Shown here piece after piece: positions 33,567 through 38,954 of a DNA stretch of 64,000 nucleotides; within the stretch, counting starts at the first letter, position 1, and the number at the start of each line of letters is the position of its first letter. The position numbers were made by a program, and so were the translations under genes. Source of the DNA: Hexactinellida sp. DTS-2022. Lineage: Eukaryota > Porifera > Hexactinellida. Below the pieces are notes generated by a model. That model did no database searches. It was given only the letters and a program-made list of their open reading frames with translations, and was not told the DNA's origin. The stretch covers positions 1,240,001-1,304,000 of the forward strand of contig JAPNXP010000006.1 of the NCBI GenBank assembly GCA_028753945.1, in the 5' to 3' direction.

Positions 33567-34310
33567 TGCGAAATTCGGGTTCAGCATACTTGTTTACCTA
33601 TAATACCCGTTGAAAGCAAACTTCTAGGTTCATTTTGAATTTTCATTAATTTGTTTACCTATTTTGTGTAAACAACAACAATAAATATTCATATTATAAA
33701 TTTATATAAACGCGAAATTCGTGATCAGCATACTTGTGTCACAATAATACCCGGTGAAAGCTAACTTCTAGGTTGATTTTAAATTTCATCAATTTGTTTA
33801 CATATTTGTGTAAACAACAACAACAAATATTAATATTATAAATAAAAAAACGCGAAATTCGTGTTCAGCATACTTGCTTACCATTAATACCCGTTGAAAG
33901 CAAACTTCTATGTTGCTTTTGAATTTCATTAATTTGTTTACCTATTTTGTGTAAACAACAACAATAAATATTCATATTATAAATTTGTAAATGCGAAATT
34001 CGTGATCAGCATACTTGTTTACCTATAATACCCGGTGAAAGCTAACTTCTAGGTTGATTTTTAATTTCATCAATTTGTTTACCTATTTTTGTAAACAACA
34101 ACAACAAATATTAATATTATAAATTAAAAAACGCGAAATTCGTGTTCAGCATACTTGCTTACCATTAATACCCGTTGAAAGCAAACTTCTAGGTTGATTT
34201 TGAATTTTCATTAATTTGTTTACCTTTTTGTGTAAACAACAGCAACAAATATTAATATTACAAATTTATAAACGCGAAATTCGTGTTCAGCATACTTGTT
34301 TACCTATTAT
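33567..34310 (+). repeat. tandem array, about 141-bp unit, 5 copies
   Basis: Units start with GCGAAATTCGTGTTCAGC at about 33569, 33712, 33852, 33993, 34132 and 34273 (last partial). Each has TGTTTACCTAT and a later GTAAACAACAACAA piece. Alternate units are more alike (GTGATCAGC versus GTGTTCAGC), which suggests growth by a two-unit duplication. Confidence 0.9.
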
Positions 34311-34384
34311 AGCATTTGTTATCAATTATAACATTTGACAGTTAGTTTATATCTCATATATTAATGCGGTTTCTATCCCCTCGT

Positions 34385-34460: not shown

Positions 34461-34883
34461 GATTGTTTGGAATGTATGTTGGATAACTGGGCCCGTATTC
34501 ACTAAGAAGTTAAGTACATATAGGGTTTGCAATCCCGGGATCCCGGGATTGCTATACATTTTCTCCCGGGATTCGAAGACCAATCCCGGGATTCAATAAA
34601 GTACTAGGAATCCTGATCAATTTGTTGTTGTTAAGTGCTAACCACGTTCCATTAATGCGAATCCTTTGATTTCATAATTAGATGTGTGAACTTAAATTAA
34701 ACATTGGGGGAAGTGCAATCAGAAGGAGCACACTCCCATCCAGTCTGTGAGGGGCTTTTTTAAAGTTAAAATAATACAGCAAGTTATTACAATAGCATTC
34801 CATACACTAATATGCTATGCTATTGAATAAATATAATTCAATTTCGTACTTAAGTACGTACTTAGTTCATATATTTAATTTTC

Positions 34884-35137
34884 TTATTCGACAGTCGAAT
34901 AACTCTTATTCGACAGTCGAACAACTCTTATTCGACAGTCGAACAACTCTTATTCGACAGTCGAACAACTCTTATTCGACAGTCGAACAACTCTTATTCG
35001 ACAGTCGAACAACTCTTATTCGACAGTCGAACAACTCTTATTCGACAGTCGAACAACTCTTATTCGACAGTCGAACAACTCTTATTCGACAGTCGAACAA
35101 CTCTTATTCGACAGTCGAACAACTCTTATTCGACAGT
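34884..35137 (+). repeat. left 22-bp palindromic array (12 units)
   Basis: Unit period 22, core TTCGACAGTCGAA (perfect arms TTCGAC/GTCGAA around A), spacer CAACTCTTA. The first unit and the last unit differ slightly. Inverse array at 38540-38760. A repeat-only frame through it is not a gene. Confidence 0.95.
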
Positions 35138-35287
35138 TGAGTACACTAGTTAATTTGAACTTGAATGTATAGAAGTATTATCAACATTTTTTTGTAAGTG
35201 TTAACTTCGCTGGGGGTATTATATATGCCTCTAGTATCTATAAAATATTTGAATATCTACAAATTTCAAATTTTTCTGTGGAACTTG

Positions 35288-37224
35288 ATGAATCAAGCAA
35301 ACGCTCGTAAAATCCTGGCAAGCACATGCGACCAGTTCTACAAAATTACTGGTGAGGTGGTAGCACTGACATTTACATGGAATGGTATGTTAACTGTATA
35401 CGGTCCAGATTCCTTCAAACAGATAATTATATCTCAGAAAGTAGACGTGTGGGAAAGTTTATCCCATTCTTATACGAATAACGTAGAGGAACCTAATAAA
35501 ATAAAGAAAAAGTCAAAACCTATGGTTGATGAACACATGAGTGATTTGATGAAAGAAGATATCAATCGTTACTCTCGAGGTACCCTAAGGAGACTAGTAT
35601 CATGGGCTACTCAAAAGTCAATCGGTAATCTGAAACCCAATTATTGTACAATTTTGTAATTTTAACAAAGAAAGTAACAATAATTTATATGATATACAAA
35701 TACGTAGATTATAAGATTTATAACTTTATGTTTGTAGGTCGTGGTCGTTCTTTTTGGGGAGTAGAATCTTTGAAACCTGTTTGGTGGCCTGATACAGTAA
35801 AATTCGAATGTATCTCGAAGTCAAATGTAAGGAAAGACTTGATAGTTATGATAATACATTCATACATGGTACATAATGATATCCCTATTGCTATCGCATC
35901 TTCAACACCTAAGAAAATAATCAAAGAAGTTAACAATTCAGCTGATACGAGTACACCTAAAAGAGTCCGCCCAAATCCATCACATTCGCTCACCTTTACA
36001 CCAATTAGGAAAAAACCGAGAGTGACAGAAATTGATAGAGGATATTATTTCAGTCTCTGATATAAGTGCTGATAACTCATTTTTCGAAGGCTTAACTGGT
36101 GAAGTAATACTTTCTAAGGGAAACCAAGTTCCATCCAGACCTATCGATGTAAAAAATACAAGTAAACTAGAAGAAGAAAAATTATTAACTAAAGCAAAAG
36201 GTAACAGTAAACATTATATTAGATGTAGTAATTCGAATATATTAAGAAAATCTGTCAAAGAAATATGTGTGCGTGAACTTACTCATGCTGGAAAATGGCT
36301 CTCAGATGTTACAATCCATGCTTATTGTGTAAGTATTCTTATTTATGAAATTTTTTAAGCCTTTGTTTGTATATTTAGCTAGAATTTAACAACGTATACA
36401 ATATTTCATTCTTTCTTTTAGACTTTGCTGAAACGCAGTTTTCCTAATATCAGCGGGCTACAGGATACTATATTTTCCCAGGTGTATAATCTAATTCTCT
36501 ATCATTTACAAATTAAAGTTATAAATAAATACTTAAAACTTCAGATTATAATCTGTATTCGGAGTATTGAAACTTAAAATCACCTTATTAATTTAACTCC
36601 AATATTTAGAATCTTGGATTCAAAAAAGCTGCACGAGATATTCCTAGCATTCAGTTACACAGTTGTGGTCAACATTGGGTCTGTTCAAAGTACGATGGTA
36701 AAGGCGGGATATATATTTATGATTCACTGTACGTGAGAAAAACAAGTGGAGACTTAGATACACAACTGGCACTCCTGTATGCTGAGCACTCACAGCAGCT
36801 GATAGTAACAGTTCCCAGTATACAGCAACAAAAGGGTAGTTCAGAATGTGGTCTATATGCCCTAGCAGTTGCTACTGCTATAGCTGCTGGTGTTGAACCA
36901 GAAACCCAGTCATGGAATCAATACCAAATGAGGTCCCATTGCCTCAAATGTATAAAGGAAGAAAAAATAACTCTATTTCCAATAAACACCACACGTGGAG
37001 TACGCACAGGGAAACTACCTGAATCACATCAAATTATTATCGATCTAATTTGCACATGTAATCTACCGATATATGCTTATGTAAATCAACGTGAAAGTTC
37101 AGTTCGATACACAGTTCAATGTGACGTATGCGACAGCTGGTTCCATAATGAATGTGTAGGGCTTCCTGAAAGCTCAATCATTGACAATAGTTTTAGCTGT
37201 GTAACTTGCACGAATAAACCTTAA
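35288..37224 (+). CDS. transposon gene A: NRF1-like DNA-binding region, ULP1 protease, PHD-like finger
   Basis: Exons I infer: 35288-35624, 35738-36328 (with a frameshift near 36035), 36422-36481, 36610-37224, all with GT-AG borders in phase. Exon 1-2 junction gives LRRLVSWATQ..GRG then WG-x-ES-x-KP-x-WWP, the signature of the NRF1/Erect-wing DNA-binding region; a preceding VVALTFTWNG and VYGPDSFKQ block also fits its N-terminal dimerisation part. A basic linker (KKIIKEV..PKRVRPNP) follows. Then a ULP1/C48 cysteine protease: His in GQHWVC, Asp in IYIYDSLY, Gln in VPSIQQQ, Cys in SSECGLYALA, all present. The C-terminus is a zinc finger of PHD type (CDVCDSWFHNEC, CVTC). C48 proteases cut SUMO- or ubiquitin-like tags; in transposons their role is unclear. 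The frameshift makes this copy defective unless it is an error. Opposite-strand gene B ends 167 bases downstream. Confidence 0.75.
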
Positions 37225-37390
37225 ATTATTAATGTATCTATTTATCAACTACCATCATTTGATACTTTTTGTACGACTAGAACTTTAACTTTATCCAATT
37301 ATTCGTCAAATGAGGCGCTTATTGGAGCGAAATAGGATATAATAAATTGATGTTCTGCCGGTAAATATCAAAAACATAAAGTGATGTATA

Positions 37391-38184
37391 CTATATACTA
37401 ATATTTTTGTTCCAACTAGCTAAAAAATAACGCGTTGTAAAGAATACATTCTCTATGCGCATATACGCAATTTGTGTTGAAAGTCTTCGAAGGGTAGAGA
37501 ATAGTTGCTCACAAATCTCTGAATTTACTTTCTTCATTTCATGTGTAGCCCAGGTGTTCATAGAGAAGATAGGATCGCAGCGATGATTTTTGCTATGAAA
37601 TCTGTCGACCAGAAAGGTTGTATTGCGAAACAATGCAGGGTCCCTAATTAGAAAGTATAAATAAATGTCTCCTTGGGATTAAAGGATAAAAAAACAGTCA
37701 GTATGTTACCTTATAATACAAGTTGTATTTAAGTTACAAGCGTTGTCATAAATAATGACAGCTGGTGGGATTGTAAATTTGCTGATGAGCATGTTATAAA
37801 TAAGTACTGTTGACTCCCTAGTAGTTAAAATTTCAAATCCATAACAGAACTTGTGTTGACACGCCATTACTATTAATCCAGGAGAAAATCTTTGGTGCTT
37901 AGGGTAAATTTTGGAACAAGTAGTAGGTATGCATATGTCCTCCTTTAGTTTCTCATACTGTGGTATCCTATTAAAAATGATAATTAAAGAGAAATTTTTC
38001 GAATATTAATATAATTAATCAAATTTCTCAGTGACAACACTGAGTATGTCATATTATTGAATCAGTAAGCTTACTTGTAGTTTGCTGGTAAGGCTGGGAA
38101 GTACTGAAAGAAGTCTGTTTCGCTTGCCTCTCTTTCTATCAACTTTCGAGATGGGTTCTTGAATAAAACTTTAATTTTGTTCAT
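37391..38184 (-). CDS. transposon gene B: KDZ-type transposase (C-terminal part)
   Basis: Exons on the minus strand: 38184-38075, 37967-37710, 37643-37391, GT-AG borders in phase, about 206 residues. Exon 2 has SPGLIVMACQHKFCYGFEIL and AVIIYDNACNLNT (an Asp in a DNA-type motif); exon 3 has FLVDRFHSKNHRCDP and VNSEICEQLFSTLRRLSTQI (the Glu motif). The D-x-AC, DRFH-x-NH and NS-x2-EQ pattern is that of Kyakuja-Dileera-Zisupton transposases. The first catalytic Asp and the usual N-terminal parts are not in these exons; they may have been lost with the insertion near 38373 or lie in exons I could not see. Convergent with gene A. Confidence 0.7.
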
Positions 38185-38372
38185 AATTTGTTCATAAAAA
38201 ATAGTTGAAAATTATCTAAGTAGAACATAAGTGAATTTGTATATTATATTACAAGATTTAGTTAATTAAATTAATAAACTGAATAGTCTAATTGGACGCG
38301 TTCGAATATTAGTTAATTAATTAAGTAATTCGACAATGTAAAATGAGTTAATTTACTGTTGACAAAGAGTTC

Positions 38373-38540
38373 AGGGCCGGATCACCCAATAGGCTAAGTA
38401 GGCTGCAGCCTAGGTGCCCGTGGGTTCTGGCGGCCTCATAAAATCTGCTCGTCGTAATTTTATATTGGTTGAAGGGGGAAAGGGACCCCTAATTCTACCC
38501 AGCCTATGATTCCAGAGACCCATCATCCATCTCTGAAAGA
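38373..38540. mobile_element. possible hAT-type insertion in the right end region
   Basis: Begins CAGGGCCGGATCACCCAATA, GC-rich compared with its surroundings. The other end is not clear. Confidence 0.35.
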
Positions 38541-38760
38541 GTTGTTTGACTGTCGAATAAGAGTTGTTCGACTGTCGAATAAGAGTTGTTCGACTGTCGA
38601 ATAAGAGTTGTTCGACTGTCGAATAAGAGTTGTTCGACTGTCGAATAAGAGTTGTTCGACTGTCGAATAAGAGTTGTTCGACTGTCGAATAAGAGTTGTT
38701 CGACTGTCGAATAAGAGTTGTTCGACTGTCGAATAAGAGTTATTCGACTGTCGAATAAGA
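38540..38760 (-). repeat. right 22-bp palindromic array (10 units)
   Basis: Inverse of the left array: GAGTTGTTCGACTGTCGAAT repeated every 22 bases, with the first unit slightly altered. Confidence 0.95.
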
Positions 38761-38954
38761 AAATTTAATACCTCACTTAGTTAAGTATGACCTAAGTATA
38801 ACAATATTTCTTAGTGAATACGACTTAAGTACGAACTTTGTACTTAAGTCTATACTTAGTACTTAAGTACTAAGTAATCTTAGTGAATACGGGCCCTGAA
38901 GTAGGCAACTCGATTTTAACGTACCAGGGTAGACTGGGTAGTACGTACTCATTT

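Follow-up and report, generated by a model that had tools for sequence, protein, structure and literature searches.

KDZ transposons of a glass sponge genome pair an NRF1-like gene with terminal arrays of NRF1-type sites

We analyzed a 64,000-nucleotide stretch of the genome of the glass sponge Hexactinellida sp. DTS-2022 (hereafter the window; positions 1,240,001 to 1,304,000 of contig JAPNXP010000006.1, assembly GCA_028753945.1). The window is part of contig C15 of a genome of 18 contigs and 112 Mb, and it contains a 3,907-bp transposon copy with parts of a KDZ-type transposase gene (gene B) and a second gene (gene A) that joins an NRF1-like DNA-binding region, a C48/Ulp1-type protease core and a PHD finger. 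Related elements elsewhere in this genome have the same pair of genes, and their ends are built from rows of short palindromes that in five families include the published NRF1 site. The window copy itself is a damaged deletion derivative; in the group that it represents, the gene A protein probably forms an NRF1-type dimer that binds the element's own arrays and orients the transposase. A first-pass annotation, made from the letters of the window, had proposed a transposon that combines these parts. The combination is supported by profile matches and by its recurrence, but the boundaries given were wrong and the copy is damaged.

Results

Gene A joins an NRF1-like region to protease-type and PHD parts

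Gene A of the window copy was modeled as four exons, and its start codon is uncertain (35225 or 35288).

35225..35624, plus strand: gene A exon 1, with the NRF1-type dimerization region and the first part of the DNA-binding region (PF10491, PDB 8k4l, splice model)
35738..36328, plus strand: gene A exon 2; the NRF1-type region ends at ~35877 and the frame is broken at 36040 (profile, copy comparison, splice model)
36422..36481, plus strand: gene A exon 3 (splice model)
36610..37224, plus strand: gene A exon 4 with the stop; C48/Ulp1-type core at ~36610-36906, PHD finger at ~37051-37209 (PF02902, PF00628, residues)

The spliced gene matched the NRF1 DNA-binding profile PF10491 (Nrf1_DNA-bind) with E 3.9e-11 and 43.5 bits (cut-off 23.5), which bears out the NRF1-like region read by the first-pass annotation, and its first part matched only NRF1 among PDB entries (8k4l, 4.8e-9; 8k3d, 1.1e-6). 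The PHD-like zinc finger was likewise recovered (PF00628, E 1.3e-7, 32.0 bits, cut-off 24). The annotation had also called the C48 protease intact. Its His, Asp, Gln and Cys residues are indeed present, but the C48 profile PF02902 scored below its cut-off of 20.7 (E 0.0023, 18.2 bits; second model, 16.8 bits), and we therefore call this part C48-type rather than a proven Ulp1/C48 member. Across the group, His, Asp and Cys are found in 16/16 covering rows (one of the 17 rows is a gap) and Gln in 15/16, L036b having His in its place. All eight ligands of the C4HC3 PHD finger are present in 13 of 17 models, the remainder being damaged, cut or out of range. These alignments, and that of the KDZ residues below, leave out L037 and L040 (near-duplicates) and the gene A of L036 (a near-duplicate of that of L035). 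When the protease-PHD exon was used as a query against viral contigs, no relatives were found.

Relative to the C17 and C15b copies, four copies (window, C9, C14 and C2) lack 2 bp at 36040; in the window, this puts the protease and PHD parts in a different frame from the NRF1-like part.

Gene B is the end of a KDZ transposase

38075..38188, minus strand: internal transposase exon remnant, up to a deletion junction near 38188-38196 (comparison with the C17 copy)
37710..37967, minus strand: KDZ exon with YDNAC (PF18758; exon lengths as in the C17 model)
37394..37643, minus strand: last KDZ exon with DRFH and NSEICEQ (PF18758)

Gene B had been described as a KDZ-type gene convergent with gene A, and we found that it matches KDZ PF18758 with E 4.1e-11 and 43.5 bits (cut-off 26.6; 40.4 bits for the model from the C17 copy). 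What remains in the window, however, is only the C-terminal end of the transposase, in which the first conserved Asp is absent. Relative to C17, the window lacks 2,840 bases (L009:1459-4298), where the transposase extends toward its N-terminus. A complete transposase in the window was thus rejected, and the open model was located in the C17 copy: 858 residues in six exons, with no stop or frameshift. Because the query for this model was our own reading of the same open frames, the match supports openness and not expression. The KDZ acidic residues are kept across the group (Asp in 12/12 covering rows, with 3 gaps; Asp in 14/14, the L038 row being doubtful; Glu in 14/14). The profile CxC4, which describes the cysteine cluster beside KDZ transposases, gave E 0.0044 and 17.3 bits, under its cut-off of 26.9.

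Further, nearly identical copies lie on C9 and C14 (99% identity over ~3.7 kb) and on C17 (98% over 3.1 kb); a C11 copy is more damaged, and partial copies are found on C2 and C15. The C9 and C14 copies match the window straight across the deletion junction, and the three copies thus appear to be one deletion derivative that continued to move. Gene A of the C17 copy has a separate 1-base loss, and both genes are intact in none of the window-family copies compared. Gene A is on the CATATATT side in the window and on the GAGG side in C9, C14 and C17 (L009, L011 and L012 compared). The end types are thus swapped relative to the genes, which indicates at least one inversion of the interior through the arrays.

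The pairing of the two genes recurs across the group

Genome profile searches returned 10 NRF1-type places, one of which is the host NRF1 gene, and 7 KDZ places. A KDZ protein query gave 177 matches, which correspond to fewer copies because the query spans two exons. NRF1-like and protease matches were present in all 12 further loci (L035-L045 and L047) and KDZ matches in 10 of these. Six further families were chosen by KDZ alone, their arrays unseen at the time of choice. In this set, NRF1-like and protease matches were found in 6/6 families, and 6/6 have an array at one terminus or at both. Counting all loci taken by KDZ alone, including L044, L045 and L047, the NRF1-like/protease gene accompanied the transposase in 9/9, and a one-off capture was therefore rejected. 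The genes were arranged tail-to-tail in 16/16 loci where both were seen. When 10 other families were tested against PF10491, nine matched, 5 with scores over the cut-off and 4 under it, and one had no match. An alignment of the NRF1-like exons showed too little conservation to be useful as a query. The models of L049 and L051 have no stop or frameshift in their modeled parts.

The termini are also shared. One terminus is GAGNTATT in all 14 families with ends read; the other, readable in nine families, is CATATATT or, in L053, CATGTATT. In L042, no array or end was found. Target duplications were read by eye in 13 insertions: seven have an exact 8-bp duplication, and the remaining six have 7 bp or agree in 7 of 8.

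Two arrangements of loci stood out in this survey. L036 (C4:1202300-1209800) holds two elements of different families of the group, side by side in opposite directions. L039 and L040 (C11, 6.06 and 8.26 Mb) are 99.5% alike over 6.4 kb including flanks, which points to a segmental duplication rather than two insertions.

The terminal arrays are rows of mostly palindromic units at a fixed distance from the end

The first-pass annotation had noted inverted 22-bp arrays, and these were confirmed at both ends of the window element; no exact copy of the palindrome TTCGACAGTCGAA was found elsewhere in the window.

34884..35141, no strand assigned: left terminal array, 22-bp period, 11 exact TTCGACAGTCGAA palindromes
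38537..38764, no strand assigned: right terminal array, inverted, 9 exact TTCGACAGTCGAA palindromes (reverse copies)

The unit is 20-23 bp long across the 14 families, except in L053 (27 bp), and its palindrome differs between families as follows.

Window family: TTCGACwGTCGAA
L035: TATTCGCATGCGAATA
L036b: TCGCATGCGA
L038: GAGCATGCTC
L041/L043: TAGGCGCTAGCGCCTA
L044, L047, L048, L049, L051: GCGCATGCGC, with or without outer pairs
L045: TCCGCATGCGGA
L050: GCACATGTGC
L053: TATGCGCTAGCGCATA

In units other than that of L052, shuffle p values for these palindromes range from 0.0007 to 0.06. The combined p was 3.9e-9 for the eight first-set families (one unit per family, arrays noticed before testing) and 1.6e-6 for the six test families including L052, related families not being fully independent in either value. 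GCGCATGCGC occurs in 5/14 array units, compared to 0.0002 expected from shuffles, and GCATGC in 10/14, compared to 0.09 expected.

Furthermore, the position of the first palindrome is fixed. A first unit with 5 pairs or more is present at 26 of 34 ends, and at every one of these the dyad is centered 24.5-26 bp from the terminus; the 26 ends come from 10 families, the window family supplying 8, and the count covers 34 of 35 ends because the L041 slice has no terminus motif. A genome-wide search for TATTAAAAA followed by GCATGC within 2-24 bases gave 103 matches, compared to 14 in a reversed control, with exactly 9 bases between the two in 82 of the 100 matches listed. A few of the 9-base matches (e.g., C2:737238) lie at the inner edge of an array.

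Such arrays could be by-products of slippage or fold-back that have no protein partner, the NRF1-like gene being unrelated to them. Near-identical copies do differ in repeat number, which indicates that arrays expand and shrink, and 4 of 32 other tandem units from the same loci (controls picked by hand) also reach 5 pairs. Slippage leaves unexplained the GCATGC shared by 10/14 families, the match to the NRF1 site and the fixed distance, and we give this explanation hardly any weight. Instead, termini built from rows of NRF1-type sites suggest that the gene A protein recognizes its own element's ends.

Site-reading residues and sites appear to vary together

In the crystal structure of NRF1, a homodimer is bound to GCGCATGCGC, the published NRF1 site; base reading is divided between R206 (site center), N242 (outer G) and R244 (the next two pairs) (available text of PMC10810270). 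Arg is found at 206 in 13/13 transposon domains covering this position, the L053 alignment being doubtful. Positions 242/244 are Asn and Lys in L044, L048, L051 and L053, as in host NRF1, and the half-sites of all four families are GCGC. In L038, Asn and Ser go with GAGC, and in L050 Asn goes with GCAC. Cys and Ser occupy these positions in the window family, L035, L036b and L045, where the outer base is T or C. The outer G is kept in 6/6 Asn-242 families and in 1/5 Cys families (Fisher test p 0.015, a value that overstates independence because the Cys families are one clade, bootstrap 86); the test omitted L047, L049 and L052, whose residues are different or unclear, and L042, in which no array was found. 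It looks as if NRF1-like residues and sites have co-diverged between families, without a strict code.

The host NRF1 gene lies on C1 (profile score 176.5 bits) as a single 510-codon frame (L046:4508-6037) that matches PDB 8k4l at 1.8e-36 and 129 bits; by that score it is well diverged from human NRF1. Further searches of the genome gave 2 nuclear-receptor and 16 homeodomain matches and no Wnt match, in a search in which the control did not match either; this tentatively fits an early-branching animal such as a glass sponge. Four transposon queries, including the NRF1-like part of the window, found no match at E 0.01 in 9 kb around host NRF1, which indicates that the two NRF1 types are far apart. 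The first-pass annotation had raised the possibilities that the element was a source of animal NRF1 or carried a captured relative of it. In a tree without L042, a branch with bootstrap 100 divides the 14 transposon domains from human and host NRF1, and another (86) unites the Cys-Ser families; the tree is unrooted and so gives no direction between source and capture.

Because the genome has its own NRF1 gene and five families carry the exact published NRF1 site, the arrays might attract host NRF1 as promoters or enhancers, the NRF1-like part of gene A having drifted to another use. Against this, the window family, L035, L038, L045 and L050 have divergent sites and yet retain the NRF1-like gene together with arrays, and the Arg that reads the site is conserved. 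We regard recruitment of host NRF1 as very improbable.

Weighing a model of self-recognition

We favor the reading in which the gene A protein binds its own element's arrays and orients the transposase, and we propose the following mechanism. A full element has two tail-to-tail genes, for a KDZ transposase and an NRF1-type/C48-type/PHD protein. The NRF1-type region would dimerize and bind palindromes within the arrays at the ends of its own element, and the spacing of mostly 20-23 bp, about two helix turns, would place neighboring dimers on one face of the DNA. The first dimer, at its fixed distance from the terminus, would dock and orient the transposase; the fixed dyad distance and two-turn spacing suit a protein array with this role. 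More tentatively, the protease and PHD parts may be recruited to the termini, where their target would be silencing chromatin modified with SUMO, the dimer perhaps delivering a SUMO-protease activity there.

Several observations weigh against this reading. The C48 match lies below its cut-off. L043 has Cys and Ser at 242/244 and yet keeps the outer G, which speaks against a strict residue-site code, and the Cys families amount to a single clade. The L052 unit consensus is a poor palindrome (3 pairs only, shuffle p 0.53), although a raw L052 unit contains GCGCATGCGC, and the first unit has fewer than 5 pairs in 8 of 34 ends. In L047 the NRF1-like domain is represented by its second half alone, PF10491 finds nothing in L053 (its tblastn match is 4e-8), and L044, L049 and L051 score under the PF10491 cut-off despite their GCGCATGCGC sites.

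The gene A protein might instead be mainly an anti-silencing factor, like the VANC proteins of Arabidopsis VANDAL elements; it would bind the tandem sites to relieve repression of the element and remove SUMO through its protease core, with no direct role in cutting or joining. A SUMO-protease-type core lies within the same protein, the palindrome contains CpG in 13/14 families (all but L050), and NRF1 binding is methylation-sensitive. VANC targets, too, are often tandem repeats that vary between related elements, but VANC binds non-coding regions inside the element (both from the available text of PMC5735166), and a role at the cutting site agrees better than a general one with the constant distance between terminus and first palindrome. 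We therefore consider a mainly anti-silencing role unlikely, and a dimer that binds the ends and orients the transposase remains our preferred explanation.

The transposon is inserted in an older repeat

The first-pass annotation had taken 34489..38896, with GGGCCC-type inverted ends, as the element. This region consists of nested elements, the KDZ transposon lying inside an older short GGGCCC-ended element; the transposon itself runs from 34868 to 38774 and is flanked on either side by ACTTAGTT.

34868..38774, no strand assigned: KDZ transposon copy, 3,907 bp (copies on C9, C14 and C17; ends and length)
34868: left terminus, CATATATTTAATTTTC
38774: right terminus, GAGGTATTAAATTTTC (reverse strand)
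34860..34867, no strand assigned: target duplication ACTTAGTT, left copy, 8 bp
38775..38782, no strand assigned: target duplication ACTTAGTT, right copy, 8 bp
34489..34867, no strand assigned: older GGGCCC-ended element, left part, itself with further inserted repeats (insert-free copies L032, L033, L034)
38775..38896, no strand assigned: older GGGCCC-ended element, right part (insert-free copies)

The GGGCCC-ended element is found without the transposon at three other places, on C1, C2 and C16 (L032, L033 and L034). These empty copies carry ACTTAGTT once, where the window has one on each side of the transposon, and thus mark the exact insertion site. We rejected the GGGCCC termini as transposon ends because they are part of this older element, present elsewhere without the insert.

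Other repeats surround or interrupt these elements. Positions 34515-34696, inside the GGGCCC element, are a short repeat with CCCGGGAT motifs that has more than 20 similar stretches in the genome. Tandem copies of ~141 bp lie immediately to the left, at 34000-34330, and the flank of the C9 copy is similar to window sequence at ~34340. Within the transposon, ~157 bp at 38371-38527 have a separate 90% match at C11:1758701-1758852 and are perhaps an old nested insertion.

Discussion

The group resembles KDZ/Zisupton elements in its transposase profile, its several exons and its inverted terminal repeats. Its target duplications of 7-8 bp compare with the 8 bp of Zisupton (available text of PMC12730594). 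It differs from KDZ elements in having a second NRF1-type/Ulp1-type/PHD gene and NRF1-type site arrays at its ends; neither feature is mentioned in the available text of three KDZ papers (PMC12730594, PMC9297572, PMC12062965). A screen of domain pairings that discusses Zisupton reports an F-box in platyfish Zisupton, and neither NRF1 nor Ulp1 appears in its main text as available (PMC12062965). In the open-licence literature, we found no KDZ/Zisupton element with an NRF1, PF10491 or Ulp1 part; Repbase, which may record such a pairing, lay outside this scope. Searches of the same literature for NRF1 domestication, or for NRF1 with sponge and transposon, also returned no such element.

Gene A resembles NRF1, P3A2 and Erect wing in its dimerization and DNA-binding region, in Arg206, in Asn/Lys at 242/244 in four families and in the GCGCATGCGC sites of five. 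In contrast to these proteins, its domain is fused to protease and PHD parts and resides in a mobile element. The WWP motif and the last helix are also separated by a shorter region in the transposon domain than in NRF1, and the sites are altered in many families.

Other transposons offer partial parallels. Fold-back/Galileo-type elements have long inverted ends made of short tandem units, as here, with other transposase classes, and we know of no NRF1-type sites in them. TNPA of En/Spm and similar accessory proteins, which are thought to bind repeated motifs near both ends, are like gene A in that respect. In both En/Spm TNPA and VANDAL/VANC, the protein and the transposase class are unrelated to those of this group. 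VANDAL/VANC nonetheless resembles it in having an element-encoded DNA-binding protein whose tandem-repeat targets vary between related elements (PMC5735166, available text). By analogy with VANC on VANDAL repeats, host chromatin at the ends may be what the Ulp1-type and PHD parts act on.

These transposons pair the domain of a well-studied transcription factor with an element that bears, in several families, the exact site of that factor in its terminal rows. They provide a testable model of how a selfish element recognizes itself, and, within one genome, a natural set in which each DNA-binding domain comes with its own site. They also give a lead on the origin of NRF1. It is possible, if doubtful, that animal NRF1 arose by domestication of an end-binding protein from a KDZ transposon lineage; GCGCATGCGC would then be an old end-recognition site that persists in this genome in terminal arrays, and some promoter sites may go back to such ends.

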